Shown one piece after another: positions 7,056 to 46,146 of a stretch of DNA of 64,000 nucleotides. The stretch is from Xiphias gladius (lineage: Eukaryota; Chordata; Actinopteri; Istiophoriformes; Xiphiidae), in contig NC_053422.1 of the NCBI RefSeq assembly GCF_016859285.1, positions 13,067,501-13,131,500 on the forward strand, read 5' to 3'. The stretch's first letter is position 1. The number at the start of each line of letters is the position of its first letter. A program made the translations under genes and the position numbers. The notes under the pieces were generated by a model, which did no database searches, was not told where the DNA came from, and was given only the letters and a program-made list of their open reading frames with translations.

Positions 7056-7244
7056 ATGCGGTACACCACTCTCTTGGCCCTGCTGATAGGGGTCATGTTG
7101 TACGTGGTGATGGGAGCGCTCGTTTTCCGTACCCTGGAGGCCCCCAAGGAGAGCTCGGCGTACAAAGACCTGCTTAAAACCAAGCAAAACTTCCTGGATA
7201 ATAACTCCTGTGTCACCGAGCTGGACTTCCACAAGCTTGTGAAG
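7056..7244 (+). CDS. kcnk4: kcnk4 coding exon 1 (N-terminus, TM1, start of cap)
   Basis: This exon encodes residues 1-63: TM1, the conserved extracellular FRTLE.P step and the cap helix with C52, expected to form the inter-subunit disulfide. It ends ...CTTGTGAAG followed by GTAACA, phase 0. Confidence 0.92.
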
Positions 7245-10200: not shown

Positions 10201-13200
10201 AGCGGTGCTGACCTGGAAGCAAACATTATGTAATCGGTTGAAAAATAATCTCTGAGTCAAAGAATCAAGTTGTTGAAATGGAAATGTAAGAAACTGGGCC
10301 AATCTAAAATAAAATACAGTATTAGTGGCAATATCAATATAGTAGACATGTCCTTTATTTCTCTTTTTCCTCTCTAATACTAGGCATCTAAATCCCTGTG
10401 TAATGATCAGACCTGAGTATTTGTCTGTATGAATTGATGACCCTATCCTATTCCTCCTGTCTCTGTCTCTTCTCTCTTGTAAATGGAAGTTACTGATACA
10501 AAAAATGTTCACAAACTATAGGGGCACAGCTTATGTATATTGAATAAAAAGCCCTCGTAATTAAAATAACTTCATAAGCAGTCTCTTTAGAATTTACAGG
10601 CTTATTAACTTATGTAAGTAGCTAAAGGTCTTTGTGTTGTTTCTGCGTTTTTTAACAGGCTTCGGGAACCTTTCTCCTCGGACATGGTACGGCCAGTTGT
10701 TCTGCGTGTGCTACGCCTTGGTGGGCATCCCCATGTTTGGCATACTGCTGGCTGGAGTGGGTGACCACATGGGCACGGTGCTGCGGAGAGCTGTGGCCAA
10801 GATTGAGACCCTCTTCCTGGTGAGAATGGTCTGTCCTGCCCAGGAACCAAACCTCAGTTGGATTTACACCTGTCTGAATCACAGCTAAGGACTAAGCATA
10901 TCAACAAAATCAGAGATTAATATACAAATGCTATCTAAAGTAGCTAGAAGTGGCTGCTGCCTCCACAAAAGTCACAAAATGTGAATTGCAAACAAAATTT
11001 CTGCAGGTGATAATTTATTTCAAACCTGTATTAATATAGGATGCGTAGCTGTTACCAACACTGCCTGCATACTTTAACATTGTGGAGGTGACACATAATG
11101 TAGCTGCAGCTCACCAGTGAGCAACTACTCGGGAGCCTGTGTAAGGCAGTGATAGCTGAAGAATTGAATTCTTTTACTTATTTGCTTTGCCTATATAGAT
11201 TTTTCCAGCCAGTTTAGATCCAACCAAGAGGTCACAAATGAAATTCTCTATTCTCAGATGCTCCTTGCACCTGTACAGCGGAGGATCTTCAGCCAAGAGA
11301 ATTAAATAATTAAACAGCTTAACAAAAAAGCTTACATGTGAAAGTTCATTCTTCACCTTAGAAGGAGTAGAAAGTTTCACTTTTTTTTCAACTTCCAATT
11401 GCATCTCATCAGCAAATTGGGTTTGTTCAGAAGCAAAGCACTCAAAAAAGCCAGTAAGATCATTTTTAGTTAAAATAATTTTGTCAAAAAGTTTATTTAA
11501 TGACAATAAGGCATGAGCATTGATTTCTGAGGATAGATTTTACAGGATAGAAGTATGTACAACATAACATAACATGAGCAGCACATGATACATAAGCCAT
11601 AAGAAAATTAAGAAACAGGCATCCAAAAAATAACACTTGTTGGTTGTATTTATATTAAATATAGATTCATTGAATTAAGGAAAATACTGCAGGATACACC
11701 AACAATTTGCACCAGCACTGTCCATGTAAAAAAAAAAAAAAAGTGTGGATGTGACATTAAACAGAAGATATGTGTGGTCAAACCATGAGTGTTTACACCA
11801 AACTTTTAAGTCTAATAATTTTTTTTCATTATTCCAATTTTATTTTTGTCCACTTTTGTTCTGTTTTGAAATCTGTAACTATGACAACAGTCTTAAGTAA
11901 TCATTATTATTCATTCCTCCTATTTGTTTGCTGTTTCCTTTGTCGCCCATAGAAACATAAGGTCAAGCCGACCACTGTGCGTGTGATCTCAGCGGTTCTC
12001 TCCATCCTGATTGGTTGTCTGATCTTCCTCGCCGTGCCAACAGTCGTGTTTCAGAAAGTGGAGGACTGGTCGTTTCTGGAGTCACTCTACTTTGTGGTCA
12101 TCACTCTCACCACTGTTGGCTTCGGAGACTACGTACCAGGTACTGACAAACAGACACACACAGTACTCAAGTTACAAACAACCTCCATGTGTGTATCATT
12201 TCAAACTGATCTAGAGCAGTGGTTTCCAACCTGGGGGGTGAAAAGCCCCACAAGGAATAGCAAGATGATTCTGAGTGCTCACAAGATGATAATCAGGGAA
12301 GGAAATGAGAAAATCTAGATTCTGCTACACAGAAGTCTGTTTATTTGTCAGACCTTTTTCCCATATCTTTCTTCTTGTGAAAAACTGTGTAATTTGATCT
12401 CTTCAGGTCTTTAAAAATCATTCAAAATAAACAGTGTGATAACTGAAAATTACTCCTCCTAATTACTTGATTAAACTGCAACAACTCATAGACATGCATC
12501 TTGTGACGGGAGGTTGGGAGTAAACTGTGGCGTAGGCATTGCTTTGTCTTGGAGCTGTATTCACATTATAGGGGAAAACAAGGCTCTTGTGCCGTCTGTG
12601 CTGCTTTGCTCAGTGCAGGATTTTTGGGGAGCTAATCCACAGAGCCAACATATTGACAGTATCAATTTTCAAATACTGTTAGACACTAACAGTTAAGGGA
12701 ATTCTGTCACAACTTCTTTTCACTTCCATGATGCACGGAGAAGGGAACAAGTCTGAAGAGGTAAAAACTCCAGCAACACTTGTAGTAAAAGAACAAATTC
12801 AGTATGATTGTTACTAAATAGATCCATTTAGAATGCAACGTATTGGTTTATCTGTCATTTTTAACTTCAACGGTCAAAGTTCAACCAGTCTTAACTTTTG
12901 GTGTAGTATGGTGCTGCACTACCAGACGTAGTATTGCTGCAGGATATAAAGTACATAAACAGTTAGAGCTGAAACAATTAGTTGATCAATAGGTTAGTTT
13001 GAGCTACAGATTAATATAAGCAGCCTTTTTAATAATCAATTAATTGTTTATAATTTTTCAAGCATAAATACTTGGTTTTGGACCGTTGGTCAGACAAGAA
13101 AAAAGAATCAGCAGACTAATCGACAATAAAAATAATCATTAGTTGCAGCCCATTAAGCAACAATGGAAGAGGCATGTGCAAAAGCTTTTTTTCTCTAATA

Positions 13201-14803
13201 ATGTGAGCATTGCTTAAGGGGCTTCAAGCTAAAAATGTGGGGAGCCACTGGTGTAGCGATTAGAGCAAATGCCCCTCAATCAGACCACCTTCGTTAAAAC
13301 CTCGTCTATAGCCTCACCCTGTACTCACTGAACCAAGAAACTGCATCCTAGGATTTCTCTGAGACAGACCCCTAACGTATGTCCATTGTGGTTGAGCAAG
13401 AGAAGCAGTATATCTCAATGTGGGTCAGAGGAACATCATACCTTATTCAACCCCACTTTCTCCGTGTCCAGGTGGTGGTCGTGCGGGTGGCATGTTCTTC
13501 AAGCCTCTGGTGTTGCTGTGGATAGTGTTTGGTCTTGCCTACTTTGCCTCCATCCTCACCATGATAGGCAACTGGCTGAGGGTGCTGTCGAAGAGGACCC
13601 GCGCTGAGGTGAGATATACACAGTGCAGGAATGTATACCAAGAGGGGAAGAGCTGGACTTAATCTTGTTTTAGACCCTTTTCTTCTCTACTGCTTATGTC
13701 TCTCTCTCTCTCAGATGGAGGAGTTGAGGGCCCACGCCACAGACTGGACCCAGAACATCCAGAACATGTCCATGGACTTCCGCATCCCTAACCCTCTGGA
13801 GTTCAACGACCCCTTCCTTCTGCAGCGCCGGCGCTGGAAACGCAGCGAGCGCCGTCGCATCCGTCGGGGAGCCCAGGGTACTCTGGGATACTGGATCCGA
13901 GGGGGATCTGAGAATGGACACCTGCCGATCCGCTGGGCCGGCCTGTCCAGCTCCATCAGCCAGCTGGACGCCCCTTCGTCTCTCGAGAGGGGAGTGGTGG
14001 CTAGGTCCAGGCCGCGGGCCAGCCCTGCTGGAGGGGGAACAGTCCCGAGAGCAGGGCCTGGATTGATGGTCGATCCTGCTGTGAGTCTGCAAGTGGAGGG
14101 CAGGTCGTTTCCTCACCTGCTGGCCCGCTCATTCTCCCTCCCTGTGGCCCGCTCCACCTCAGAGCTGGACTCGGCAGGTGCAGCCATGCAGGGAGGATCT
14201 CCCTCTGGATCTGAATCTGCTTTTGACTCCAGATCAGACGGCTCCTCTGTGTCCTTGTCCTTCCCGGCACTCCACCAGTTACAGCCCTGCTGTACCATCA
14301 CCACCATGGAGAAGGGAGGAGCAAGAGCCACAGACATGGACACAGCACAAAAGAAAGATAAAGTGATTCCAGCAGAGAAATGTGGATCTGTATCAAACAA
14401 TAGCCACAAACATACACCTACCCCTGGCTTTTGCCAATGCTCCTCCCTTCTGCCCCCTTTTTTTCCTCCTCCTCTCCCACCAATCCTCCTTCCCTCCCCT
14501 CCCCTCAACAGTGCTTCCTCAGCCAGCTGCCAGCTGCTGGATTTCTTCGGGGAGAACCTGGCGTACATCGACGAGTCCTCAGACACGCTGAGCGACCGTG
14601 CCCAGCCGGCAGCGAGCGAGGAGAAGAGGAGAAGGCCACGAAAGCCCAAGAGAAGGAGCATAAGGAGGCAGCTGTCACACAGTTGGAGCCCCCTGCGGGT
14701 AAAGACGTCCAACAGGGACATGCAGCCACCATCCAATCCCCCTACACCACCTCCAGACTCCTCTCTTTCAGACCTGCCCCGATCGGAGAAGCAGATGGAT
14801 TGA
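7056..14803 (+). CDS. kcnk4: Two-pore-domain K+ channel TRAAK-like (K2P4.1), six coding exons
   Basis: Coding exons are 7056-7244, 9011-9128, 10659-10819, 11953-12139, 13472-13608 and 13715-14803. All introns are GT-AG, phases agree, and the join is 1881 nt (626 residues). The protein has TM1 starting [10 protein letters not shown], nearly the human TRAAK start, then a cap cysteine (C52), an NFT glycosylation site (N81), pore 1 TTIGFGN (about 100-106), TM2/TM3, pore 2 TTVGFGDY (about 209-216) and TM4 ending [14 protein letters not shown]. Near the C-terminus [16 protein letters not shown] matches the conserved TRAAK tail, which separates it from TREK-1/2. Family knowledge: these are plasma-membrane background K+ channels of neurons, opened by membrane tension, arachidonic acid and heat. 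The ATG at 7056 is chosen because it matches the family start and an in-frame TAA lies at 7020. The tail from exon 6 (362 residues) is much longer than in human TRAAK. An unrecognised intron there is possible. Confidence 0.93.
9011..9128 (+). CDS. kcnk4: kcnk4 coding exon 2 (cap end and pore helix 1)
   Basis: The acceptor is CCCTGCAG. The exon encodes residues 64-102 plus the first base of Gly103, including the N81 glycosylation site and [18 protein letters not shown]. The intron splits the first glycine codon of the pore-1 GFG signature, a position typical of K2P genes. The donor (G|GTCGGT) is weak but in phase with the next exon. Confidence 0.9.
9270..9725. repeat. Interspersed repeat in kcnk4 intron 2
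   Basis: Sequence such as GTCAAAGGTCAAGGTCACTG and a GGTTGGTGAAGGTATAC end is typical of a common fish interspersed repeat. It is recognised from general familiarity, so boundaries are approximate. Confidence 0.45.
10659..10819 (+). CDS. kcnk4: kcnk4 coding exon 3 (selectivity filter 1, TM2)
   Basis: The exon completes Gly103 and reads [15 protein letters not shown], then TM2 with [18 protein letters not shown], a K2P hallmark. It ends CTG|GTGAGA, phase 0. Confidence 0.92.
11174..11506 (-). other. 110-codon open frame of unknown origin in kcnk4 intron 3
   Basis: The frame reads, in part, [20 protein letters not shown] and is open for 110 codons in A/T-rich intronic DNA, longer than most neighbours. 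I do not recognise the protein. It may be a fragment of a mobile-element frame or chance. Confidence 0.2.
11953..12139 (+). CDS. kcnk4: kcnk4 coding exon 4 (TM3, pore 2)
   Basis: The acceptor is GCCCATAG. The exon encodes residues 157-218: a basic TM2-TM3 linker, TM3, the [11 protein letters not shown] pore helix and the second filter TTVGFGDY. It ends in phase 1. Confidence 0.92.
12960..13152. mobile_element. Degenerate fish MITE copy (GTTAGTTGCAGCCC-end family), kcnk4 intron
   Basis: GAAACAATTAGTTGATCAAT at the left and AATCATTAGTTGCAGCCC at the right, with GGACCGTTGGTCAGACAAG inside, match a common fish element seen again at 17401-17580 and 38108-38412. Confidence 0.6.
13472..13608 (+). 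CDS. kcnk4: kcnk4 coding exon 5 (TM4)
   Basis: The exon encodes residues 219-264: a short Gly-rich linker and TM4 ([17 protein letters not shown]...), then the [14 protein letters not shown] exit helix that is near-identical in TRAAK. The donor is GAG|GTGAGA, phase 0. Confidence 0.92.
13715..14803 (+). CDS. kcnk4: kcnk4 terminal coding exon (long cytosolic tail)
   Basis: The acceptor is a TC-rich tract ending CTCAG. The exon encodes residues 265-626: a short TREK/TRAAK-like amphipathic part, a very basic stretch ([16 protein letters not shown]) that could contact acidic lipids, then Ser/Pro-rich low complexity and the conserved [13 protein letters not shown] block, ending with TGA at 14801. 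A strong pyrimidine tract ending CAACAG at 14511, and an internal GTGAGT at 14081 (not in phase with it), leave open an internal intron. The frame is open throughout, so one exon is the simplest reading. Confidence 0.8.
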   Translation: MEELRAHATDWTQNIQNMSMDFRIPNPLEFNDPFLLQRRRWKRSERRRIRRGAQGTLGYWIRGGSENGHLPIRWAGLSSSISQLDAPSSLERGVVARSRPRASPAGGGTVPRAGPGLMVDPAVSLQVEGRSFPHLLARSFSLPVARSTSELDSAGAAMQGGSPSGSESAFDSRSDGSSVSLSFPALHQLQPCCTITTMEKGGARATDMDTAQKKDKVIPAEKCGSVSNNSHKHTPTPGFCQCSSLLPPFFPPPLPPILLPSPPLNSASSASCQLLDFFGENLAYIDESSDTLSDRAQPAASEEKRRRPRKPKRRSIRRQLSHSWSPLRVKTSNRDMQPPSNPPTPPPDSSLSDLPRSEKQMD

Positions 14804-20067: not shown

Positions 20068-20191
20068 ATATGTGTATGTGTATATGTATATATGTATGTA
20101 TATATGTGTATACGTGTATGTGTATATGTATGTGTATATGTATATGTGTGTATATGTGTATATGTATGTATATATATATATACACACAGCA
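20068..20191. repeat. (TATG/TGTA)n low-complexity tract, LINE 3' side
   Basis: Alternating TATATG/TGTATA sequence directly abuts the truncated end of the LINE fragment. Frames here that read YVYMYIC are artefacts. Confidence 0.9.
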
Positions 20192-21723
20192 TTGTGAGGA
20201 GCTTCCTTGTCTTGATATCAGTGGCCTCTAGCTCCTTCCTTGGCCAGCTTATTATACCAGCGGGGTATCTGATGACTGACAGGGCGTACGTGTTAATGGC
20301 CCGTATCTTGTTCTTCCCATTCAGTCGACTTCTTAGGACCTGCCTTACTCTGTGTAGGTATTTGGCTGTGCCCGACTTCCTTGTGGCGTCCTCAAGGTTC
20401 CCATGTGCCTGCGGGATCCCAAGGTATTTGTAGCTGTCCTGAACATCCGCAATGCTGATGTTCCCCTCTGTTCTGATCATCTTCCCTCTCTTCAATACCA
20501 GCCGACCACACTTATCTAATCCGAATGACATTCCGATGTCGTTGCTGTAGTCGTTGCAGTGAGTCGATGTCTCGCTCATTCCTGGGATATAGCTTGATGT
20601 CATCAAGGAGGCTTTGAGTTGGCCTCCAGAGTTGTTTTCCACAGCCCCCATTGAGTTCTTGATGAAGGCTTTTAGTGTCCTGTTGATGTTGTACATCTCC
20701 AAGCATTCATGTATCCATGTTTGTGGCATTGAGTCATAGGCCTTCTTGTACTCAATCCAGGCACAGCTTGGTCTTGCAGTCTTGGGTGACTGCTCTATCT
20801 GCTCTATCAACCAGTAGCTGGTCCCCATCCCTTAATCTAGTCCCTGGTATTACTACAAATTCTTTTCAATTCATTTAAGCCGCTATGATGCCTGACAGGA
20901 GCTTCCATGTTGTACAGAGAAAGGTTATTGGCCGGTTGGGATGGGGGTCCTTCATGATCCTTCATCTGTACATCTGTCCGCCCTTGGGTTAACCACTCCG
21001 GGTGGCTACAAGATGGGTGGATCAGGGACTGGTGCTGTCCAGCTCTTAATACCTGACACTCGTTCTTGGATGTCTGCCATTGTAATGGTTACTGGATCTC
21101 GTTCTGGGAGATTGCTGTGATCCACTAGTTATGTGATGCCTCCTGCTCCCATATGCTCTTCAGGTATTGTTCAGTCTCAGCCCTGGGAGGATCTGTTCTC
21201 GTGTTATTACCTTGCCACTGAGAGTACACTTTGGATGGTTTGGTGGAGAACATCCTATTTATTTTCCTGGCTTCTGCTTCTCCTGTGTATCTTCTCTGTA
21301 TCTGTAGCCCTGTGTTAAGGTCGTAAGGGCTTGGAAGGATGATGATATCTCCCCTCTGACCTGTCGTCCTGGCTCCCCCTTGCCGTAGCATGTTCGTTGT
21401 ACCTCATCAATCTCTAGTTGTGATAGCAGTTGCCGTTTGCTAATGTTGGAACACTAGTAGTTTGTTTCCTTGTCAGCTTAGATGTTGGGTTTCAAAGCAT
21501 CCATATATCCCACAATCTCTGCATGTAGCCCCTCCCATCCGGGTTACTTGTATTCCATTCCAACAAATCCCTATTATTTGCCCTGCTCCATGTATGTCTT
21601 TTTCCAGTAGCCCATTTCTCATCAGGGTGACGTCCGAGCCGGTGTGACTCTCGAATTTGTGGTTTCACTCATACTGAGGTAGGCCAGCAGCATCAAGTCC
21701 ACACTAGATATGTATAACCCCAC
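20192..21723 (-). mobile_element. Defective non-LTR retrotransposon (R4/Dong-like LINE), reverse strand
   Basis: Minus-strand translations give reverse-transcriptase landmarks AWIEYKKAYDSMPQTWI, YSNDIGMSFGLDKCGR, VQDSYKYLGIPQAHGN, RVRQVLRSRLNGKNKIRAIN and [12 protein letters not shown], and upstream NRMFSTKPSKVYSQWQGNN / DPPRAETEQY. The coding is broken. The segment around 20580-20640 is frameshifted and internally deleted, so of the catalytic YxDD box only LLDDIKLYPRNERDID survives in another frame. The element stops at the (TA)n-rich tract before the C-terminal endonuclease. The assignment to R4/Dong is from remembered motif similarity. Confidence 0.8.
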
Positions 21724-23608: not shown

Positions 23609-23767
23609 TCAGCGGCATTTGCAGGATTTGACGACCATGTTGGAGAGTTGCTCAACACGTGGTGTGCGGCCAATGAAGTACATGATGGTGAGGGGCTCCA
23701 GGTCCTGAGGAACACAGCAGGGCGATGCAGAGGCCTCAGGGTTCAGCTTGTTGTACAGGGGCAGGAT
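23609..23767 (-). CDS. tgfb5: tgfb5 exon 7 (ligand C-terminus, stop)
   Basis: 52 codons plus [21 protein letters not shown], the [19 protein letters not shown] finger and the SCKC end. Most family members end in Ser; here the last residue is Arg. Confidence 0.95.
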
Positions 23768-26700
23768 CTGACCAGGGGAAAGAAATAAAGGAAAGTTAAC
23801 GGCCCTGAAAACATACTTTCAGTTTCTTCCTATGAAAAATGAACACAGTTTTCTGCCAAAGTCCCAGTTTTGGTTATTTCACATGACTTTCTGACAGACA
23901 GACTTTCTGTATTTGTGTTTTCTCTTTGTGCCACGCTAAGCTAAGCATTTACGGGCGGTTCAGCTTCATATTTACTGTCCAGATGTTAGAGTGGTCGATC
24001 TTGTTATCTAACTCTTTGTTTGAGAAAAAATAAGCTGGTTTCCTAAAACGTCTGAGTGTTTCTTTGATCAAACCAAAGCGACACAGTCCTGAGTTAAACT
24101 CTTCATAAAGAATGCCTAAGAATAGTTCTTTGAAACTTTAACTTTGATTGCTGTGTATTTAGTCATAAATATTTGATGTAGTGTTGTAATACCAACAGCT
24201 TTTCAGGGGCTTTTAGAAGAAGGCTCAGTAGGTAAATCCATTATTGTCAAATCAAGTTTAACCATTGGCACTATCCTATAATCACTGTCGGTCAATGTGT
24301 TTCCCCTATTTCTCTTTCACATACTTTAACATGTACGACAAAAACTCCCAAACTCCATAAAACCAGGCAAATCAAATTGTGTTAAAAGCCACAGTGGCAG
24401 CAAAATGTCTCGTTGTAGCAAACTTGAGTGTCAAATAAATGTGAAAATCCAATTTTAGCTGACCGTGGTTTTTTCCGACGACAAACAAAGCATGTTGAGC
24501 TCATTTAAGCAAAAGGCAAAACGTCACTCGCATTTCAAAGTTTCTGTACATTGAAGTCTGGCTGACAGTGGATTGGAGTTTGGTCCAAACCACAGCATTT
24601 TACTACAGAGACTGAGGAGTTACTAAGATTTTATCTGACATTTCATTATTTGTTTTTGTTTGGACTGCAGCAGCTGCTTATAACTGATCAGATGCCGTTG
24701 ATCTCTGTTTATATAATTTGGCTGTGTCTCATGCTGAGAGGTCTGTAACTGTTTCCATTCAAATTATTAAGCAAAAAAAAAAAGCTCACGAACCTCAAGA
24801 TTGGAGCAAAATATAATCTGGAAAAAAAGAGCACATTTGTCTTCGCTTGATCGTATTAGAAAGGGTAGTGTAATTCATTCGTCTGAGTGGTTAAAAGAGA
24901 TATTTTTGTGGTGGCGTGTTTCACAGTGGCCAGTCAGACTCAAAATGAACCCAGTCATACAGTACAGGCCTGGATATTGTCTGAAAGTTTATAATTCTAG
25001 TCCTGATGTGTTAGGAGTTTTGGTACCAAAACTGCAGTGTATTCAATAGTTCACTTTAAAGGAATAGTTCAACATTCTTGGCAATGTGCTAATTCATACC
25101 AACATCTCTAAAGCTCACTAATTAACACTTTGCGCTTTGTTTGTTTAATCCGTACAACAACAGACTGTGGTTTAATGCAGCGCTACATACTGAAACTTTT
25201 CTTGGCGCAGGGAGAAAAAACATGATATAACATGTTAATTAGTGAGCTGGTAGGCTGAGCTTTGGATCTTTCGACAGAGCCAGGCCAAATGTTTCACCCT
25301 GTTCCCAGTCTCTCTGCTAAACTAAGATAATCATGTCCTGGCCCTAAATTTGAACTTATCTAACAGATGTGACAGTCAGATCAATCTGCTAATCTAACTC
25401 TGGGCAAGAAACCAAATAGGTGTTTTTTCCAAAAGGTCAACCTATACCTTATAAAAACTTTTTTTCTACAAAACCCCTTTTTTCAGTTTAACAAAAGAAG
25501 ACAAAATGTTAAATGTCTAAAAACAATCAGCTATATAAACACTTAATAAAATAAGTCTAAAAGTGGTAAAGGTTTGATTTACATGAGGAACAACATGATG
25601 AAAAAATAAATAAACCAGATTTACGAATCACGACAGGCATTAAGTGCCATGAACACGTTTCAATACTGGGTACTACAGACATATTTCAGTCTCTACAAAA
25701 AAAAATTGAGTTTTGATTTCTAGCCCTAATCATATATAAATACCCACTCACCATGTTGTAGTGGTTGTTGGCACTCCAGAGGTAAGGGCAGTTGCCAGCA
25801 CAGAAGTTAGCTTTATAACCTTTGGGCTCATGGATCCACTTCCAGTTGAGGTCACGTCTGAAGTCGATGTAGAGTGAGCGCAGGCAGCAGCCCTGGTCTG
25901 AGCCACTGAGACACACAGAGAGACACACCATACACATTTCAACTCCCAAAGCTGGGTCATGGGAAAATCACCACGGGTCACTATTGACGAACCAGCCATC
26001 ACAAGGTAATAACCATGCAAGGCTGCCAGAGTTTTCCCTGCAGTGTGAGGTAGTCTAAATAAAAAACTGCATGCCTGTTGATCTGCAGTCTAAACACAAG
26101 GTCAATACTACACAGTAGTCTGCAAAGTGAGTTTTGGGTCTGGAGGGAAAAAAAAAAAATTTGAAATCCACCACCCACCACAACCGGATTTGAGAATTAT
26201 AAAACTACAAATCCTGTCTGTGCTGTAAATCAGTCAAACATAGTCACACAGATGTGGCTGGTTGGCGGCCTACCGGGAGCAGGTTGTGGTGTCTGTGGCG
26301 GCTGCCCTCTTCTTGCGGTTCTTCTTTGCCGGGTTGTCGACTCGGTCACTGGGCAGCAAGGTGAGGATGAGGTGCGGTGTCTTGGTGCTGAAATCCGCCT
26401 GGCCTTTAACCTGACTGGGCTTTCTTAGCTGACGAAGCTGTTCGTCATCCAGACCTATGAAAAGTAGTGGACAGTGGTGGAAAGTTACAAATTTACTAAC
26501 TTCCATGATATGCTACTTCATACTTCTACTCCACTACATTTATTTGATAAATGTAGTTACTAATTCCATCACAATTTAAAGCTAATAATACAAATATAAG
26601 CAACGAACAAATTATTATATATTATTATTGGTTAAGGTAAGACTTTATTGATCCCAGAGGGGATTAGCACGATAGCCAGCAGTAACTAAAGTTATTAACA

Positions 26701-29700
26701 TTATCTCCAACTTAACCAGCTGCAACATTAAAGTTCATATAGTCAATAATTACAATCCAATCCTTCTTGGGACCCCCAAGAAGTAACAGGATAAACCTGA
26801 GGGGGGTCACACAATAGTTAACAAGAGGAAAAAAAAGAGAAAAATTACTCTGCCACACAAATTATATTTATTTTTCAGATATTTCTCTAATCTTTGTTGT
26901 TGTTGTTTTTTTAATTGTGAAAAACTGGATAGGTTTCTCTCTTTAGGACTGTAAAAACTAAAATCAATCAATAACTGATACTGAATGGAACTGATACTGT
27001 ATATGCAACCTGTCACATTTCTTCATTTTAAAAGCCAAAAACGATTGGGAACCCCTGAGTTAATACCTTTGAAGTTTGCAAAATTTTAATGCTGGAAACA
27101 TGTGGTAGTTCAGATATAGTAATAACCAGAAATCCACAGATTCTGTTCATGAATATCCTCCAGCCATGGTTTTTATACTTCTAAGTGTTTTTCTCAGGAG
27201 TCAGGAGGACTAATTTTGAAGTTCTACACTTTTAGAAAAACTATTGCAGTACACAGCTGGAAACAGCTGTTTACAAGGCCAGGAATGATGGCCTGACTGT
27301 TATGTATCTGATTTAATGGTTTTTTCTGAGAATTTCTGAGCTAAAGGAGTTGAAGAGCCCAAAACAAGCCCCTGCTTGTCTCACAGCAGTATCAAAAGTT
27401 GAATTTTTTCCAAGTGTAGAAAAAAAACCCAAAACAAACCTGACTTGGCTCAGCTGAGTGTAAATCTTGAGGAAAGTGCCATAATTTGGAGTCTAAATTA
27501 AGCAACACGCAGTCTGGTATTCAGTAGTATCACGGTGTGAACAATTTCTCCATTATTCCTGTCTGACCGTCTGCTAGTGATTCATTAATCATTTCATAGA
27601 CGCCTTACAGAAGAGTCTGCACAGGACCGATAAATCTTCCACAAGTGCTTTTAATGCCCCTACAAAGCCATTTACAACCAACCTGTTAAAGCTGCATTTC
27701 TCAGCTGTATGGCCACTGGGATGAAACTGTTTAATGGGTTTAACTTCACCTATATAGTTCATCAAATCTTTGGCACACCGCTCGTCATGTTAATTGATCT
27801 ATTTCTTTATGTGTTTTGGCTCAACAACTAATTTTCCATGCTGATATCCACAGACAAGCAACATCTACAGATACTTGCTGCAGCACTCGGGAAAGTCCAA
27901 AATCATCATAATCAGGCAGAATCTCAGATCTCAGTCTTTCCCTGAACATTTCCATCTATCACATGAAACAGCTTTTCTGTAACAGGTGGGTCAATTCAGT
28001 TAACTCACTTTCCTGGGGCTTGAGCCAAATATACAAGTACAGTTTAAGATTTAGTATCACTGGGGGTTACTCTGACCTTTAGAAAGGTCCTCTATTCATC
28101 CACTATCCATATACATGTACAGTATGAGTACCAAGACTTGGCTTGCATGATGTGCCGTCAAAACAAAAAGAACCAAAACTAACCCGCAAACAGGGCCTCC
28201 AGCTCCTCACTCTTGTTGGGAACGATGTTGTTGGTGGACGGGACGAAGGTGCAGCAGGGACAGTGGACGCCCAGCTTCAGGCCAAGATTATTCTCTGAAG
28301 CGGGAAGAAGGAAAAGGACACACGTGAAGATGAACTACACAAACAGAGTTGTATGGATCATATACTTGTCTTGTGCTGAAGCTGACCTGGATCTGACAAC
28401 CAGTCCTTAATGGTTTCTGTGACATCCACAGAGATCCAGGATCCCTTTGCCCTGGGCTGAACGGTGCGGGAGTCAATATAACGTTGAGTGGAGGTTGTCT
28501 CTTCATCTGGCTTCAGCAGCTGACACAAAAAAAAAAGTGATGGAGGCACAGATGACACAAGCAACACATTATGATGTTTTGCTTTCTTTTCCTCTATATA
28601 TTTAAAAAATATATATATTATATTTTCCACTGTGGTTAAGGGGTCAGTGAGTTAATCTTCCTTAATTTTTACATAACACATGGATGGCACAGGGCATTAC
28701 ACTGTGTTATTGTAAAAACCAATAATAACCTTAAGAACTTTCATTAAGCCCATAAATTATGTAGACTCGCTTTCCTGGGGCTAACATTTTACCGTAAGAG
28801 GTTTAAAATGCCTCCCTCAAGCCAACACATAAATTCAGCTTAATTGGTGGAGATTAAGTGTCATAATAGTCTTGTTGGCCTGATGCCCAAAACCCTGAAA
28901 GGAGAAATCTATACAAGAGACAAATTTAAATGGTATTCCTGATTACACATTACGCATATGAACATCATTTTTCATAGAGAGGAAACAAGTGAGAGAGACT
29001 TTTCTGTGGTTTTGGTTCTACTTCTGTTTTAATAAAACAGGACAAATGGGGCCTTAGGGGATTTTACGGAAGCAAGGACTTGGTGTCTGCTTCATAATTG
29101 CAGAATAAAAGGTTTTTATTTGGATGTAAAAGCTTAAAAAGGCAAAGCAGTCTCTGACTGATATTGCTGATTACATGCTAGTCCGGTGTTTCAGGGTTTG
29201 TGCTCTCTCGTCCCTTGGCGTCGTGCTGTCGTTTACCTGATAGATTTCCACTCTCTGCTCTGAGGCCCGGGCCTGCGGGTTGGGAGCTCTGAAGATCCTG
29301 AACTCGGCCATGACCAGGGTGCTGTTGGTCAGGTCGACGCCACTGACGTCGAAGTGGACGACTCTGTAGTGGGGGTTGGGTGCTACTGGTTGCACCGTGT
29401 CTGGATGCAAACCAAAAAAAAACAAAAAACTGAGCGTGAAGGATGTCTAATGACAACAACATCTCACGCCTTCTTAGACAATGTTGTATTCATACGATTG
29501 GTAAAAACAGCGCCGCGGGACTGATGAATTGTCTGGGACATAATTACTGCTGATGAGTGTCACAAAAGTAAATGATAAGTTTGGGGAACAGTGAGTAATG
29601 GTGTCTAGTCTTATGTTAATATCTGGGCAATTGTTGCATTCATGGGTTTAACTGTATAAAACATCACCTACCACATGGACAGTTACATATTGATGTACCA

Positions 29701-31525
29701 TGTATTATCCAGCACCATTATTCTTCAAATCTCTCAAATGTGGTGCATCAACACTCAGCTTTGCCTCTATAAAGCTGCTCTGAAGGCGTCAGAGAATTGA
29801 GTGTCTTGCTCAAGCGTACATCTACGGCAGCTGTTGAAGGAAGGGGGCAGGATAACTCTCGATAACTTACTTTCTCCACCCCTCCCTCATTTTCCCAAAA
29901 GACACTGCTTCCGTTTCATGGGCAGTAGTACTGCAGCCCCCAGCAGTACTCGTGGTTTAAACAAGCAATGACAGGCAGTACCTTCTGTTCTGTTGATGTA
30001 TTGTCTGTGCAAATATCGTAATTAAAAAAGTACTGGTACTTTAGTTTACAATTTCCATTTCACGAAACTTTGATCCATTTCAGAGGGAAATATTGCACTT
30101 TTTACTCCATTCACTGGATCTGTCAACTTCAAATATTAGCTACTTTCTAGATAAAACATTTTACAAAATGTATAGTAACACCTTATTTTAAGTCCCTCTA
30201 TTACCATTCATAAGCAGTACACAAACATTTAATAAACAGTTTATAACACACTATAATGTAGATATACACAGCTGTAAGTGTTTTTGTGTATTTGTCGAAA
30301 AATAAAACTTCTCAAAACTGGAGGCTAGTCAAAAAAAATAAATTACAATATAGTAAAATATTGTTTTCATATAAAACGTGTCTACATAGAAGTTATAACG
30401 GTTGACAAAGACTGTACATTAACACTTAAAAATGTCCAAATAGCTGCTTATAACTACATTATGATGTGTTATAAGCCATTTATTGAACGTTTATAGACAG
30501 CTTATAAATGCTAGATAGGGGGGCTTGAAGTACTGTTACCAAATGCATTATCAATATAAAATTGGTGCACTGCTACAGACTGAACCACACAACCAAACAG
30601 TATAAAGTAAACAGTTGGAACCACCTGCACCAGATACAACAATAAACATGTGCTTATGCATCAGTACATCCGCAATTTAACCATCAGAAATGATGGTTTA
30701 AGTAGGAACCCATCGGGTTTTGCTGCTAATACTCCTGTACTATTACTCGGGGAAGATTTTGTTCTGGTGGAAGGGAAGTCTATGGCTGCAATTGAGTCAG
30801 CTCACTTTATTCTTGACATGCGGTCCATTAAAGTAGGAAAAAAAAGTGACTACTGCTATATGTTAAATCAGGGGTTCGCAACCTCGGGCGTGGGGCACCA
30901 ATGGGGTCCCAAGATGATTAAATGGATAAGAAAGCAAACTATTCTCCGATGTTGTAAAATCGTGGATGCTTTAACCTTCTCAAGCCTTTTAAAACCCCTT
31001 GAAATAAAATGATATAAGAAGGAAAATCATACGCAGATTTAATATAAAGGGGTCAGAAGCCAAAGGGCTGGGAACCATTATACGATGTAATTTGGATCAT
31101 TCCGGGCCCTCTGAGGCCCCCGGACCACACATTGAGAAACCCTGCCATAACGCATACATGGACTCACTAGTGTCGGTGCGGGGGGGCAGCATATCAATCC
31201 TCTGCACCTCCTTGGCGTAGTAGTCCTCCTCGCTGCTCTCGCGCTCGCACGCGGACTCGGCCAGACGCGCGCGCTCCTTCAGCAGCTCCCGCGTGCTGTT
31301 GTACAGAAGCATGACCTCCGGGGGCACCGGGCCAGGCGACGGTGCCTTGTCCTCGTCCGGCGGGCTGCGGATGCGGAGCTTGCTGAGGATCTGTCCGCGG
31401 ACCGCCTCGATGCGCCGGGACTTCTGCGCGTCCAGGTTGATGGACTGGCACGTGTTGAGCCCCTCCACCGGCAACACACCGGAGAACCGGAGCAGCAGCA
31501 GCAGCGCGAGGCGGGGGAGCCACAT
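23609..31525 (-). CDS. tgfb5: TGF-beta precursor, TGFB2-like fourth family member (candidate tgfb5)
   Basis: Exons in transcript order are 31525-31168, 29400-29237, 28519-28387, 28294-28184, 26454-26274, 25905-25752 and 23767-23609. Phases fit and the join is 1260 nt (419 residues). A hydrophobic signal peptide (1-22) precedes a latency peptide with LNTC (C26), [17 protein letters not shown]-glycosylation sites at N76 and N145 and the HCPCCTF cluster. A furin site NRKKR (about 301-305) precedes the ligand. The ligand has all nine cysteines, [35 protein letters not shown] and the ending [11 protein letters not shown]. Family role: a secreted latent dimer that signals through type I/II receptor kinases to Smad2/3. 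CPCC, the ACERE block and the absence of RGD resemble TGFB2, yet linkage to kcnk4, trmt112 and atg2a argues for a separate ohnolog. The symbol follows fish usage and is less certain than the family. The ATG at 31525 is preferred over 31582 because the signal peptide starts there. Confidence 0.92.
25058..25420. repeat. Fish interspersed repeat in tgfb5 intron 6
   Basis: AAAGGAATAGTTCAACATTC, AAAGCTCACTAATTAACAC and TTGTTTAATCCGTACAACA belong to a very common fish repeat. The same family recurs at 33100-33235 and 34076-34210. Confidence 0.6.
25752..25905 (-). CDS. tgfb5: tgfb5 exon 6 (cystine-knot ligand, first half)
   Basis: 154 nt; encodes [40 protein letters not shown] and NNHYNM. Acceptor TCTCAG, donor ATG|GTGAGT, phase 0. 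Confidence 0.95.
26274..26454 (-). CDS. tgfb5: tgfb5 exon 5 (end of latency peptide, furin site, ligand N-terminus)
   Basis: 181 nt; encodes [11 protein letters not shown], the basic NRKKR cleavage site and the first ten ligand residues [10 protein letters not shown]. The region between ALFAG and KTPH is shorter than in human TGFB2 and has no RGD. Donor CCCG|GTAGGC, phase 2. Confidence 0.9.
26474..26600. mobile_element. Fish MITE fragment (CAGTGGTGGAA end) beside a tgfb5 acceptor
   Basis: CAGTGGTGGAAAGTTAC followed by ACTTCTACTCCACTACATTT is the terminal part of the TACTTAAGTA family. It begins about 20 bp from the tgfb5 exon 5 boundary at 26454. Confidence 0.6.
26785..27060. repeat. Fish repeat with GATTGGGAACCCCTGAG end
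   Basis: The left part has ACCTGAGGGGGGTCACAC and the right end AACGATTGGGAACCCCTGAG, which match the family also seen at 12215-12310 (CAGTGGTTTCCAACCTGGGG) and 30865-31135 (AGGGGTTCGCAACCTCGGGC). Confidence 0.5.
28184..28294 (-). CDS. tgfb5: tgfb5 exon 4 (latency peptide, CPCC cluster)
   Basis: 111 nt; encodes [18 protein letters not shown] and [13 protein letters not shown]. The CPCC cysteines form the latency-peptide dimer bonds in TGFB2-type proteins. The exon lies between TTCAG and G|GTTAGT and has no long open frame of its own because it is short. Confidence 0.92.
28387..28519 (-). CDS. tgfb5: tgfb5 exon 3 (latency peptide)
   Basis: 133 nt; encodes [18 protein letters not shown] and the [10 protein letters not shown] helix. 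Donor CCAG|GTCAGC, phase 1. Confidence 0.92.
29237..29400 (-). CDS. tgfb5: tgfb5 exon 2 (latency peptide)
   Basis: 164 nt; acceptor TGCATCCAG, donor CAG|GTAAAC. It encodes [18 protein letters not shown] and [20 protein letters not shown], closely similar to TGFB2 exon 2. Confidence 0.93.
30174..30540. mobile_element. MITE-like element in tgfb5 intron 1
   Basis: Left end GTAACACCTTATTTTAAGTC mirrors right end GGCTTGAAGTACTGTTAC, with internal TTTATAACACACTATAATG and TATAAGCCATTTATTGAAC repeats. A second partial copy lies at 56715-56900 in an atg2a intron. Confidence 0.6.
31168..31525 (-). CDS. tgfb5: tgfb5 exon 1 (signal peptide, start of latency peptide)
   Basis: The exon encodes residues 1-119. 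It includes the signal peptide, C26 (the position used for LTBP/GARP bonding in the family), the straitjacket helix [13 protein letters not shown] and [16 protein letters not shown]. The donor is ACTA|GTGAGT, phase 1. The exon is GC-rich compared with its flanks. Confidence 0.93.
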
Positions 31526-36308: not shown

Positions 36309-36410
36309 CTACACCTCGTCCTCGTTCAGCAGCATGTTGGGGATTCCTCTGGAGATCGGGAACTCGCGTCCTGACTCGGGACACTGCAGACAGCCCTCTA
36401 TCACCTCCAC
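36309..36410 (-). CDS. trmt112: trmt112 exon 4 and stop
   Basis: 33 codons plus [19 protein letters not shown] to NEDEV. The acceptor TTACAG is preceded directly by a (GT)n tract instead of a normal pyrimidine tract. Confidence 0.95.
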
Positions 36411-39400
36411 CTGTAACACACACACACACACACACAAGGTATGAGACGACCGCTAGATGTCATGATAGACCTGTGGTTCCCAACCCCTGGTTCATGGTTT
36501 AATAATTATTATACAACTTAAAATACTATTTTTTTTTTTTGCAGTAATTATCTTGAAACTTGGTGAAGTCTGCCTCATTTATCTTCCTTCATCCCCACAG
36601 ACCCAACGACTATATACTGATTTTTAATTAAGGGACCAGTGTGTAGGATTTAGTGGCATCTAATGGTGAGGTTACAGACTGCAACAAACTGAATACCCCT
36701 CCCTTTCCATATGTGCTGGAGAACCCTAGGATGGCCTTCAGGTAATGTAAAAACGCAAAAGGCCCCCTCTAGAGCCAGTGTTTGGTTTGTCTGTTCTGGG
36801 CTACTATAGAAACATGGCGGTGCAATATAGTGGGCTCCATGGAAGAGGACCTGCTCACTATCTAACTATCTACATGAAGGGCTCATTCTAAGCTAACGAA
36901 AACACAACAATTCTTAGTTTCAGGTGATTATACAGTAAGGAAAATAGAAGTTTACATGAAATCTGTGCAAGGCCACTACCTGAGTCTGCATTTATATTTT
37001 TCATCTAGTGCGTAACAATAAAAACCAAATACAAGATACACGGTCCTGCCGACTGCTTTACACTATTTCAGTGATCCACAGGTGGTAGGAATTTGCCAAG
37101 AAATGCAGCACTGTGTGCTAGAAAAGGCAGTGAAGGAAAAGACTGCTAGTATGTAAACACTGATGTTAACAATTCATTGGAAACATTTAAAACAAAAAAA
37201 AACAAAAAAAAGCTAATGTTTTGCGGGGAGGAAATGCATTCAACATGTTTGTTAGACCTCAAGGATACACACAATGGCTTTTGGTGAGAAACGCTGAATT
37301 TAAACATAACATTTGTTTACAAGAAAATTCCACAGGTCACCTTTAAATTTAGCTTCTGGTTAGTTTCATTTATATGCCCACCCACTTTCTCTCTTGTGCA
37401 CTCTTTTCCTTCTCTCTCTCGCTGTCATTTTCCAACTTGGTATCAAGGCCAGTCAAGGTTGGGAATATCTGCAGCCAGGCTCCAAAATTATGTGTAAAAC
37501 CTTCCTAGAAGAGTGGAGGCTGTTATAGCAGCAGATTAATGCTCATGGGTTTGGAATGAGGTGTTCAATAATCACGTGTAATGTTTGGGAGTCGAGACAC
37601 TTTTGTTGCTTTACTCCACCGCACTAACATGGCGCAGATATGAAAAACAAGACACTGAGCTGGAGACGACCACATGAAAGCTTTGTTGCTAACTGCTGTT
37701 GCCAGTAATAGCAACGGGAGAACAAGTACACGCTGTACCTTTGTATGCTACAGTGTGAGAGTGAATATTGTAAGCTGTTTTATTTCTATCCAAAAAGCGT
37801 TCTACACAAAAGATATCTCATAACTGTCATAATCATTCACAACGCTAAGTGAAACAAGAATAAGAAACACTGCTGGGATCTACAATGATAAATGATATAA
37901 TGAATGTAAAGGCGGTCTTTGGCAGCTGTGTTTTCAATGAGTCCAAAAACATAAAAGGAGCGAGACGTCTTTTCTAACTGTTAACAATAGCTTCATGCTT
38001 GTGACAATGTGTGGGTTTGACGGAAAATTAAAAATCAAAGCACTAAAACAACTTGTGATATTAAATTAGAAGAAATTAAAGAAGTAGAGCTAAAAAATTA
38101 CAAATTAGAAATATTTTGATAATGGTTTAAGTCAGTTTTAAGCAAAAATGCAAAACTGTCTCTGGTTCTAGCATCTCCAATATGAAGATGTCCTGCTTTT
38201 TTCTCTTTTATATCTCTGTAAACTGAATATCTTTGGGTTTCGGACTGTCGGTCGCACAAGATAAGACATTTGATGACGTCACCAAAGCAACTGGCAAAAT
38301 GTGTGAGGGGACTGTCACTCTTTTCGGACATTTTAAAGACCGTAAGATGAATCAATTGATCGAGAAAATAATAGGCAGATTGATAATGAAAATAGCTAGT
38401 TGCTGCCCTAAAAAGAAACATTCACATGCCAGAAATATAACTAGATAGTAAAAAATTCCACTGTAGTAAAAACAAACACCAATACTGACAGGAATGACCA
38501 AGCTTTTACCTCTAATAGCACTCTGTGCACTTTCTTCAGGAACTCGTCGTTCTTCTCGTAGTCGGGCACCAGCTCACCCGGCAGGTCTTGCCGATGACCC
38601 AGCTATAGAGAGAAAATGCACAGTAGCTAGAATTCAAACCGGACCAATGTATCTCCAGAGATAAATATGAGCCTCTCAAATGAGATCATTGAACTGGGCA
38701 GAGAAATTAAGAGCGAATCTCTGTACTTGGAAAAAAGGTGCACAGTGATTTGAAAGTAGTGGATGCTTGTTCTGGGCTTTTTCTAAACGGGCTTTTGTGT
38801 ACAACTGAGCGGGTTGCTTTATCTTAAGGATTCAACATGAAGCCTGTGTGGTAAGACACTCTTGTAAATGTTTCTTCAATGTTGAAACACTCCCCTAGGC
38901 AAGTGCTGTTGACACAAATTAAAGTCTAGTCCTGTGCAGGTTTATTTAATGAGAAAGATTCAATGTAGAGCATCACATCACACTACTGGGCAGACTCTGG
39001 TGCAGTCTGACACACCTCCTCTGCAGCCTGGACCAGAGCGCTCCACTCCAGCTTGGGAATCATCCGGCTGACAAACTGAGGGTTGAACTCCACCTCATTC
39101 ACCTTCACCTCAGTTGCCTGCACCAAAAAAAAACAACACAACCTATTAGCATGAACATTCAGAGTCAGCTTGTGCCCTTCAGACATTTATGTATAAGAAA
39201 ATGGGGAGGGGGGGTCTCTGAGGGGTTCTCAGAGATCTATGTTTGAGGTGGTGTGGTTTTGAAAAAGGCTTTTCATACCCTGGTCTGGTCCTACACTGTT
39301 GGCCTATTGTCAAGGGATAATTAAATAGATAAGAAATATTTGGAGCAAAAGGCTGATGAATCTTTTGTTACATTATACCGGGGCAAGAAAAAAAGTTATG

Positions 39401-40407
39401 GCACAGGGTAAGAAACTCTGTAAAATACTTTGGCTGCTGGCAAAGAAGCCATGCCACCTCTCACTATAAGGTAGTCCAGTACAGGATGTAACCTTTACAT
39501 TTAGGATCTGGCTTTAAATATTTAAGATTAAGCTGGATATTTAATATTTAGATTTAACATTTATAATAAGCATGTACATCACATTTAGTACTGTTTTAAA
39601 TAAATTTAACTCTAAATCTTGTATATTTGAGACTTTAAAAAGTTCAGATATCTTTTTTTATTATTAAGCTAAATGTGACAGAAATAAATTGTTCATTTGT
39701 GCTTTACAAACTTTACAAAGGGAGCGTGTAGCAAGATATACACTCAGTGGCCACTTTATTAGATAAACTTGTACAATGTAATGCGATCTAATACAACTGA
39801 TCCGCTTTAAAGTCTACTTTAATGTTGCTTATAATGTTCAGGTTTTTTTTGACACTGTCCAAGAAATTTTAATTAAATTATTTGTTTTAGCATTGAAGTC
39901 ATAGTTAGTGATGGTGTTGTACTGGACTGCACTATATTCAGGAGGTGTTTTTAATATTCAGCTCCCCTCATATTTGTAAACAGGAAGGACAACAGGTTAG
40001 AAACGCCTCTCAATATAATAATATAATACATAAATAAACTTCATAAAAAGGAAGGATTTACAGCAGAACCGTTAGACTTAATTGTAATAGACTGCACAGG
40101 TGTAAGTAATAAGGTGGCCACTGAGTTTGTACCGGATCCTGTTCATGCACAATTATCGTCAACACAACCGCTGCCCTTGGAAATACGAATACAGAAGATG
40201 TTGCATTAACTTAAGATAACTACATCCTCCTTTCATTTCAGTGCCCGAGCGACACGCAGCACCAAGACTACATGATGTTACTGCTAAGTGGTCAGCGTTA
40301 GCAGCGATGGCAGCCAGGTGTGTACAGTTTACCTTGATGAGCAGCGGGTACCCTTTGGTGACTCCCTTCACGTGAGACGTCAACATGTTGTGAGTGAGCA
40401 GCTTCAT
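36309..40407 (-). CDS. trmt112: TRMT112 methyltransferase activator subunit, four exons
   Basis: Exons in transcript order are 40407-40333, 39117-39016, 38602-38510 and 36410-36309, all phase 0, 372 nt, 123 residues (human about 125). The start [16 protein letters not shown], the middle [17 protein letters not shown] and the end [19 protein letters not shown] are near-identical to vertebrate TRMT112. Family role: a small obligate partner that stabilises and activates several methyltransferases acting on tRNA, 18S rRNA and release factor eRF1 (TRMT11, ALKBH8, BUD23, METTL5, N6AMT1), in nucleus and cytoplasm. It is transcribed in the same direction as tgfb5 and atg2a. The introns are filled with repeats, and intron 3 is about 2.1 kb. 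Confidence 0.95.
36415..36436. repeat. (AC)n abutting the trmt112 exon 4 acceptor
   Basis: On the coding strand this reads (GT)n immediately followed by TTACAG and the exon. Confidence 0.9.
36628..37110. repeat. Common fish repeat in trmt112 intron 3
   Basis: GGGACCAGTGTGTAGGATTT, AGTGGCATCTAATGGTGAGG and AGAAACATGGCGGTGCAA are signatures of a very abundant percomorph repeat. Right boundary approximate. Confidence 0.65.
38108..38412. mobile_element. Fish MITE copy in trmt112 intron 3
   Basis: Contains GTAAACTGAATATCTTTGGG, CGGACTGTCGGTCGCACAAG, TGATGACGTCACC, GAGAAAATAATAGGCAGATTG and AGTTGCTGCCCT, the order expected for the family also at 12960. Confidence 0.7.
38510..38602 (-). CDS. trmt112: trmt112 exon 3
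   Basis: 31 codons, [20 protein letters not shown] to VHRVLLE, acceptor CTATAG, donor GAG|GTAAAA. It corresponds to the family segment before VEVIEG. Confidence 0.93.
39016..39117 (-). CDS. trmt112: trmt112 exon 2
   Basis: 34 codons, [16 protein letters not shown] to LVQAAEE, acceptor GGTGCAG after a T-run, donor GAG|GTGTGT. Confidence 0.94.
39485..40128. mobile_element. Dispersed repeat copy B with complete inverted-repeat element
   Basis: The left part matches copy A. ACTCAGTGGCCACTTTATTA at about 39742 is mirrored by TAATAAGGTGGCCACTGAGT ending near 40127, giving a ~385-bp element with ~20-bp inverted ends and no transposase. It lies in trmt112 intron 1. Confidence 0.7.
40333..40407 (-). 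CDS. trmt112: trmt112 exon 1
   Basis: 25 codons from [15 protein letters not shown]... to LLIK, donor AAG|GTAAAC. Confidence 0.94.
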
Positions 40408-43361: not shown

Positions 43362-46146
43362 TCATTCTTGGCCGTCCTCTGTGCGCCACTTCAAGAAATC
43401 TTCCTTCCGGGCGTCTGGTTTGATCTGGTTCCTCATGCCACCGAGCAGATTGGAGGTGGCTTCAGAGGCCACTATCAAGGGTCGAACTACAGTAGGTGGG
43501 ATCTGCCGCAGGACGCCGCCCACAGCACCAGGCAGACCCTTCTGTTCGTGGCCCCGGGATGCTACATCGCACAAAGTCTGAGCCGTGTCAATCACTCCCT
43601 GGAGGAGCAGAGAGAATGAACATCATGCACCGATTAGAAACCTGGTTATGTATGGCCAAGAAATTGCTTTCTTCTGGTTTCTCTAATCCCCCATCCCGAT
43701 TATTTAGACTGGGTTCCTCATATAATCAGATTACTGCAGGAAATCGACAGTAAAGTTACTACTAGAATGTGAGAAAGTGACTGAGCTAAAAGATGAGTGC
43801 ATTAGACTGCTTATTTTTGGATTCTCTGCTCTCTAGAAGGGTCCATAACCAGTTTTTTTAGAGGTTAAATTTGGGGACGCACCTCTCTGACGGTGTCGTA
43901 GGCCTTGGCCACGCCTTCTCGGAGGTCTGCAGGCTGGGCGGCTCTGCGTGGCCGGTTGGAGGGGGCCCGGCCCTCGGTGATGGCGTAGCGAGTCAGGGGA
44001 GGCGTTGGGGATAGGATGTCGTACACCGTCTCTGCTGTGGCCTGTAAAAACAGCAGACAGAAACCAAAGGTTAGTTTTCCTTATTCTAATCAAGAGTACA
44101 AGGACAGAGTATCTTGTATAGATTGTAAAGAGCTTTGAGGAAAGGTTGTTATTTTGGGCTACGTAAATAAAAATGAATTTTAAAATTGAAACCCAGACAC
44201 CAAATACCTGAGGGCTGGTTTATTGTGAAATCCTTGAAAAACAGGTGTCCGCACAGTTGGACACAACGAAAAAAAATTCACAAGAATTTCTCAATCTTAT
44301 GTCATCATTGAGTTAGACTGCCTTGTAACATGCAGTTTCTTTTCGAGCTATCAGAAAAATGTTTTTGCAGAGAAAAGTGTATTCCCACATGGCCCATATG
44401 GCAGCCATGTAGTACATCTTTAATTCACAGTCACCAGTCTTGAACTGCACTGAAAATCCATTATAGACTGAGTACCTGTATGGCCTGCACCAGCCTGTTG
44501 CTGAGCTCCAGAGCAGCTGATGCTGTTGAGGTGCCGAAGGACGCTGCCCCCCTCTGGAGGCCTCGAATAATGCGTCCGTCTTTCCTGTACTGCTCTATGG
44601 GCAACCAGAACAGATCCCTCACTCCATGGACTGGAGAAACACACAGAGATGGAAAAGAGGGGATAAACGAAGAGATAAAACAGGATAAAGAACATTAACG
44701 TGTTAAGCTGTCAGTGTGTTTGGAATAGACAAGTATTATCAACTCACACAGCTGGACAACCGAGTGCATGGGGCCAACCCCTCCCAGAATGCCCGGCAGC
44801 TGATTCTTTCTGATGTCTGTCAGCCACTCTGTGACGGCGTACTGGATCACTTTGTCTACACCGAGGAGACTAGGAAGTGTTGCAGAAGAAAGACAGAGAG
44901 ACTTACAACGGAAAACTCTACTGGTTTGCTTTTCAAACATAATGATCTACTCTCAAAAGGTCACAAATTACTGAACACTGAACATTTGTTTGGGCCAGTT
45001 GGACATTTGGAGAGAATCTCTGGGATGACAGCACTATCTTTCAAGCAACCAGGGAGTTCAGTTTGGCAGAGTGGTGTGTGTTTCTACCCGTGTCTGCAGC
45101 AGAGCCTCTTTAGCTTCAGCTCAGAACAGTTTAACTGGGCCAGGCCGATCAGAATCCCTGCAAACGTTCCCTGTGAAACAGAATAATGAATATTCAGTCG
45201 GCCTTGACATTTATTTCCTGATCAAATACACATGACTCCTACAGCTTTCTTTATGATAAGCTTTTGGTCAGGCAGGGTGACAGACGAAATGTCTCACCTG
45301 TTCAATGACGACATGTTTCCCATGATAGTCCAGCCAGATAGGCACTTCAGAGGTGAAACGAAACTCCCTGAAAAGGACAGAGGGAAGGATGGGGAAATAA
45401 TCAATCAATAACTTAAACCTTTATTCATCTTCAACTAGCTGGCAGAGTGCACTCAGTCTTCTTTCGCAATATTCTGCTTTCTTACCCTTAAGGTCACAGT
45501 TTTGACACATCTGAAGTTGTTTCACAACACAGAAAAAACTATTTCTCCTTTGATTGCAACTCCCTTGATGGGTCCTGGTGTATTAGTTTCTACATACCGG
45601 AAGTAGATTGGCTGGTCAGAGGAAGAGGTGGAGCCGGCAGAAGAGGAGCTCTGCTCGCTGTAGGTAGTTTCTACAGAAGCTGTGAGATCAGGTCCCAGAC
45701 CAGCAGCTGCCTCTGCCTCCTCGGGTGACTTCTGGGAGGGGTCTGCCTTCACTGAAAATAAATGGAGAGAAATATAGGAAAATACATATTTTCCATAGCA
45801 TGTTCATGTAAAACATGCTCGAATAAGCTTGGCTAATCATATAAATATGTTCTGCAGCCAGTCAAAATGTATCATGCCACAGGGACAATATGCTGTACTT
45901 TTAGAACTAACTCCACAAAAAGCAGCTTAGCAAACGATGCGTGATGGATCTTGTTTTAATATCTTAATATTTATGTCAAAATCCCATCACATTAAGTATG
46001 AAAGACAACTGATTAAATACACAGCAAAGAACCAAAAACAAAATCATCAGACATAGCTCACCTTCAGTTGCTGGGTCCACAGGCAGGTAAGGGTTAACGG
46101 AGGAGGCTAGATTACTGAAAAAGTCCTTCAGGAAGAAAAGTGCGTC
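43362..46146 (-). CDS. atg2a: atg2a exon block 5 (last eight exons, C-terminal domain)
   Basis: Exons 46146-46062, 45751-45598, 45367-45298, 45170-45088, 44869-44748, 44630-44476, 44041-43883 and 43598-43362. They encode [13 protein letters not shown], a Ser-rich linker ending [61 protein letters not shown], the [20 protein letters not shown] segment, YDILSP...[20 protein letters not shown], and [20 protein letters not shown] up to [12 protein letters not shown]. This is the conserved ATG2 C-terminal domain. Confidence 0.94.

Follow-up and report, generated by a model that had tools for sequence, protein, structure and literature searches.

An intact TGF-beta6 (TGFB2B) gene beside kcnk4 in the swordfish genome, very probably a TGF-beta ohnolog that mammals lack

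A 64,000-nucleotide stretch of the swordfish (Xiphias gladius) genome, referred to here as the window, holds a TGF-beta gene in the company of kcnk4, trmt112 and atg2a. Its presence there raises the question of whether it is a further member of the family, distinct from TGFB1, TGFB2 and TGFB3, and by what kind of duplication it arose. Our analysis indicates that the gene, called tgfb6 below, is very probably an intact orthologue of fish TGF-beta6 (later TGFB2B). It would represent TGF-beta in the KCNK4/ESRRA/ATG2A paralogon as an ohnolog that is sister to TGFB2 and missing from mammals. Both the gene and its interpretation as an ohnolog lost in mammals are already published, as TGF-beta6 in 2010 and as TGFB2B with a 2R origin in 2018.

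On the minus strand, a seven-exon gene encodes a TGF-beta precursor of 419 amino acids, running from an ATG at 31525 to a stop codon that ends at 23609; the complete precursor proposed in the initial annotation is exact to the base at both ends. Exon lengths are 358/164/133/111/181/154/159 bp with the stop counted in the last, every intron is of the GT..AG type, and the frame is open across all seven exons, which are as follows.

31168..31525, minus strand: tgfb6 exon 1, with start codon, signal peptide and LNTC; matches the Pfam propeptide
29237..29400, minus strand: tgfb6 exon 2, 164 bp, with AG/GT borders
28387..28519, minus strand: tgfb6 exon 3, 133 bp
28184..28294, minus strand: tgfb6 exon 4, 111 bp, with the HCPCCTF bow-tie cysteines
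26274..26454, minus strand: tgfb6 exon 5, 181 bp, without RGD; RKKR furin site and beginning of the mature peptide
25752..25905, minus strand: tgfb6 exon 6, 154 bp, first part of the mature ligand, with Arg25
23609..23767, minus strand: tgfb6 exon 7, 159 bp with the stop, second part of the mature ligand, with Phe91, Ile92, Gly93 and Arg94

The predicted product matches the Pfam families TGFb_propeptide (E 2.3e-39) and TGF_beta (E 8.3e-25), and its best match among solved structures is the TGF-beta2 proprotein 8fxs (E 2.4e-150), followed by TGF-beta3 and then TGF-beta1. It has the sequence hallmarks of a TGF-beta proper, namely an early prodomain cysteine (in LNTC, near the prodomain start), bow-tie cysteines (CPCC), a furin site (RKKR, at residue 302) and a nine-cysteine ligand, here a mature peptide of 114 amino acids. 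In known family members, a prodomain cysteine of the LNTC type provides the link to LTBP or GARP. The precursor also contains three N-X-S/T sites for N-glycosylation and is free of RGD. Both features of the TGFB2-like latency peptide that had been claimed for this gene, CPCC and the lack of RGD, can be read in the predicted protein. The observation of the gene is confirmed as real, far beyond chance.

The same gene was cloned previously from the gilthead sea bream, Sparus aurata (FJ966093), and named TGF-beta6 (Funkenstein 2010, PMC2881917). According to that report, the sea bream gene also has seven exons, of which exons 2-6 have exactly the swordfish lengths (164/133/111/181/154 bp). Its mature peptide likewise has 114 residues and nine cysteines, and it shares with the swordfish gene the lack of RGD, a count of three N-glycosylation sites and eight of ten TGFBR2 contact residues. 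The differences given there are small: a precursor of 420 rather than 419 amino acids, INTC in place of LNTC, and exons 1 and 7 of 361 and 156 bp as against 358 and 159 bp in swordfish, which perhaps reflects in part how the ends and the stop were counted. This likeness is one of published lengths and counts set beside the swordfish gene. The same source describes expression of the sea bream gene, conserved synteny in five teleosts, and an equivalent region of mouse chromosome 19 that has no TGF-beta gene. In a later study (Zheng 2018, PMC5979292), Funkenstein's gene is cited as the earlier report, the name TGFB2B is used, elephant shark, coelacanth and python are added, and the origin is assigned to the 2R genome duplication. 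Liu 2022 (PMC8931421) likewise recovers TGF-beta2B as a clade, made up of cartilaginous and bony fish, and allows for either 2R or a genome duplication in fish as its source. The identity of tgfb6 with the TGFB2B of these two studies rests on Zheng's citation of Funkenstein, not on sequences.

The position of tgfb6 between kcnk4 and trmt112/atg2a is borne out, with all three neighbors matched within the window. Their names rest partly on a search with human query sequences, which also returned a few short or low-complexity rows.

7056..14665, plus strand: kcnk4, a K2P channel of the TRAAK type, matched in six exon pieces by the human KCNK4 query
36315..40407, minus strand: trmt112, four matching exon pieces, E 4e-4 or better, human TRMT112 query
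43362..60608, minus strand: atg2a, five pieces examined; the gene's full extent may differ

When joined, the kcnk4 pieces have KCNK4 as their best solved structure, at 303 bits versus 286 for the best KCNK2, a gap of 17 bits. The five joined atg2a pieces match ATG2A at E 8.7e-98, in a match list that holds no ATG2B chain for comparison; taken singly, only the last gives a Pfam ATG2 match (ATG2_CAD, E 5.1e-15), the other four giving none. One of the two trmt112 pieces tried matches Pfam Trm112p at 21.4 bits, just below the cut-off of 22. A genome-wide search for this family returned no matches, probably because its 40-residue domain is split by introns. We take kcnk4, trmt112 and atg2a to be genes of human 11q13, and with all three in the window the tgfb6 locus corresponds to that region and to mouse chromosome 19. 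No ESRR gene was seen in the window, either among the 49 ESRR matches listed or as a match to the ESRR query domain, and four long open reading frames in the window gave no Pfam matches. By eye, an open frame on the minus strand at 20052-20831 resembles a degenerate fragment of a LINE-type reverse transcriptase; long dinucleotide repeats follow it near 21.7-22.3 kb.

Searching the swordfish genome with the tgfb6 precursor gave at least 45 TGF-beta matches. Among those listed, exon-split loci of the TGF-beta-proper type occur, besides the window, on C22 (tgfb2), on C4 and C10 (two tgfb3) and on C7 (tgfb1), these names being assigned from similarity to the PDB isoforms and from the tree. A maximum-likelihood tree was built from eight precursors: tgfb6, the four swordfish paralogues, and three PDB isoforms (one per isoform), of which the TGFB2 and TGFB3 rows are presumed to be human. 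The set includes no shark, gar, frog or python sequences, two of its rows are without exon 1, and 8fxs seems to carry engineered changes. Omitted were the loci L001-L008, as well as loci on C5, C11, C18, C21 and C24; the latter either resemble tgfb6 only weakly, as different members of the superfamily, or do not match it. A TGF-beta superfamily gene on C18 carries the same propeptide exon twice (L014:7982-8098 and 9014-9130), 1,032 bases apart and with identical translation, which reflects either recent duplication in tandem or an artefact of the assembly.

In the eight-row tree, PDB TGFB2 and swordfish tgfb2 form a pair with support of 98/97 that excludes tgfb6, and tgfb6 adjoins this pair at 96/94 on a long branch (0.86); the branch of swordfish tgfb1 is long as well. 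Approximately unbiased (AU) tests reject constraints that join tgfb6 to swordfish tgfb2 (p-AU 0.013), to the C4 tgfb3 (p 1.4e-5) or to both swordfish tgfb3 copies (p 4.2e-5), whereas rejection is less strong for its union with the TGFB3 clade as a whole (p 0.029) or with that of TGFB1 (p 0.025). With these eight rows, tgfb6 forms a lineage of its own, distinct from the TGFB1, TGFB2 and TGFB3 sequences of swordfish and PDB alike. The clade apart from TGFB1/2/3 that had been anticipated is recovered as a separate branch, but not as one equidistant from the three, since it is sister to TGFB2; nesting within TGFB2 or TGFB3 as a teleost duplicate, the outcome that had been named as contrary, is not seen in the tree or the AU tests.

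TGFB2 is the nearest relative of the whole precursor (57% identity over 388 columns), CPCC in the bow-tie and the lack of RGD are common to tgfb6, 8fxs and swordfish tgfb2 on C22, and tgfb6 and 8fxs have in common an extra cysteine in ACERE. In contrast, tgfb6 and TGFB2 are only about 56-57% identical, and TGFB2 has Lys25 and Lys94 where tgfb6 has Arg25 and Arg94. Across 97 columns of the mature core, identity with PDB TGFB2 and TGFB3 is 76-77%. We rejected the assignment of tgfb6 as the TGFB2 orthologue itself, as it does not group as the same gene with PDB TGFB2 and swordfish tgfb2, and a separate tgfb2 is present on C22.

Linkage elsewhere in the genome bears on how tgfb6 arose. On C23, which carries the window, kcnk4, tgfb6, trmt112 and atg2a lie together. 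On C10, tgfb3 shares a span of ∼330 kb with one ESRR and one ATG2 gene, with ESRR-like DNA-binding exons at 12.07 Mb (∼117 kb from tgfb3) and, at 12.40 Mb (∼200 kb from tgfb3), the only one of the three genome-wide ATG2 matches that lies outside the window. Similar ESRR-like exons are found at C4:13.32 Mb, ∼55 kb from the other tgfb3, and TREK/TRAAK-type matches (31 in all, E <= 1e-8) occur on the same chromosomes but farther off, at C4:12.34 Mb and C10:16.62 Mb. The swordfish tgfb2 lies at 0.43-0.45 Mb on C22, where genome searches (49 ESRR and 31 KCNK matches) gave no ESRR or TREK-type match nearby, and a KCNK/ESRR pair is found on C1, apart from tgfb2. Copies of ESRR, KCNK and ATG2 outside the window are named from identity, not from trees. 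Liu 2022 (PMC8931421) reports that human and mouse have ESRRG close to TGFB2, and that ESRRB accompanies TGFB3 across species. The recurring company of TGFB with ESRR and ATG2 on C10, and with ESRR on C4, is what block duplication predicts, even though tgfb2 is without such neighbors.

A second kcnk4-like gene is located at C17:20.79 Mb, with an ESRR gene, esrra-like in its DNA-binding domain, ∼14 kb away (C17:20791325-20814631). Identity to the query domain reaches 95% in the first DNA-binding exon, more than in any other match listed, and 80% in the second exon, compared with 81% for the C1 copy. No C17 row is present among the at least 45 TGF-beta matches listed, and this segment is probably the teleost-duplication (3R) sister of the window segment, without tgfb6. 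ESRR-like DNA-binding domains with 73-83% identity were noted at two more sites, C4:14952383-14954006 and C7:27690296-27691550, in addition to those on C1, C4:13.32 Mb, C10 and C17.

Three other histories for the gene were weighed against ohnology. An independent duplication of a TGFB2 ancestor as a single gene, which then moved beside kcnk4 with no block being duplicated, would account for a tgfb2 that has no ESRR/TREK linkage in this genome. However, a TGFB gene recurs near both ESRR and ATG2 on C10, and near ESRR on C4, which block duplication would lead one to expect, and we regard the single-gene event as highly improbable. The chance that tgfb6 is a fast-evolving copy of tgfb2 or tgfb3 from the teleost-specific duplication (3R) is slimmer still. 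The proximity of the precursor to TGFB2 (57%, 388 columns) and the long branch of tgfb6 are in its favor, and duplication in fish is one of the possibilities mentioned by Liu 2022 (PMC8931421). Nonetheless, groupings of tgfb6 with swordfish tgfb2 (p-AU 0.013) and with the C4 tgfb3 (p 1.4e-5) are both rejected, two tgfb3 copies already exist elsewhere in the genome, and orthologues are published from elephant shark, coelacanth and python (PMC5979292).

The long branch could also signal a decaying copy on its way to becoming a pseudogene, but this is scarcely credible given an open frame over seven exons, intact splice sites, the furin site and nine mature cysteines, as well as a mature core that retains 76-77% identity to PDB TGFB2 and TGFB3 (97 columns) and a sea bream orthologue that is expressed (PMC2881917). 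For the coding frame, the intact gene model contradicts decay. We therefore retain the reading of tgfb6 as an ohnolog sister to TGFB2. As originally framed, a fourth TGF-beta ohnolog kept in fish and lost in mammals, the idea stands with regard to ohnology and mammalian loss, which the tree, the linkage, PMC2881917 and PMC5979292 all favor; its restriction to fish was too narrow, given the python sequence of Zheng 2018.

By analogy with other family members, the tgfb6 precursor would dimerize and be cut by furin at RKKR, and its prodomain would hold the 114-residue ligand latent, with the cysteine of the first prodomain helix probably binding LTBP. Release would be independent of RGD integrins, as for TGF-beta2, and the freed dimer would be expected to signal through TGFBR2/TGFBR1. 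At Funkenstein's ten TGFBR2 contacts, tgfb6 agrees with TGF-beta3 at eight, the differences being Tyr91Phe and Val92Ile. It follows TGFB1/3 in having Arg25 and Arg94, PDB TGFB2 and swordfish tgfb2 having Lys at both positions, while Ile92 is as in TGFB2; in place of the TGFB2 signature of Lys25, Ile92 and Lys94 it has Arg25, Ile92 and Arg94. PMC10706148 states that Lys25, Ile92 and Lys94 may account for the weak binding of TGF-beta2 to TGFBR2, and that TGF-beta2 is not released via RGD integrins. Combined with this view of the residues, Arg25 and Arg94 predict that TGF-beta6 may need betaglycan less than TGF-beta2 does, although Ile92 argues partly against this. It is conceivable, though we hold the idea only tentatively and lean somewhat against it, that TGF-beta6 is a functional hybrid in which a latency peptide of TGFB2 type, with CPCC and without RGD, surrounds a ligand with TGFB1/3-type Arg25 and Arg94, and which would bind TGFBR2 well without betaglycan and be released without RGD integrins.

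Of the five TGF-beta loci found in swordfish, four have no RGD in the exon-5 region read. The RGD of PDB TGFB3 is missing from both swordfish tgfb3 genes, the C4 copy reading HSRLDLD (L023:2860-3024) and exon 5 of the C10 copy, whose start is inferred, likewise lacking it (L027:4694-4849). The tgfb1 on C7 keeps its RGD.

The discovery of TGF-beta6 is over a decade old, and the additions made here, within-genome linkage evidence and the contrast of receptor contacts between tgfb6 and TGF-beta2, are modest. The gene confirms for a further fish genome, through linkage of several families inside it, that the TGF-beta genes of jawed vertebrates formerly numbered at least four and that one of them was lost in mammals. 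If the hybrid reading is true, swordfish would depend mainly on tgfb1 for activation by RGD integrins. In fish models, knockouts of tgfb1-3 could also be confounded by a fourth ligand whose latency and receptor contacts are of mixed type.
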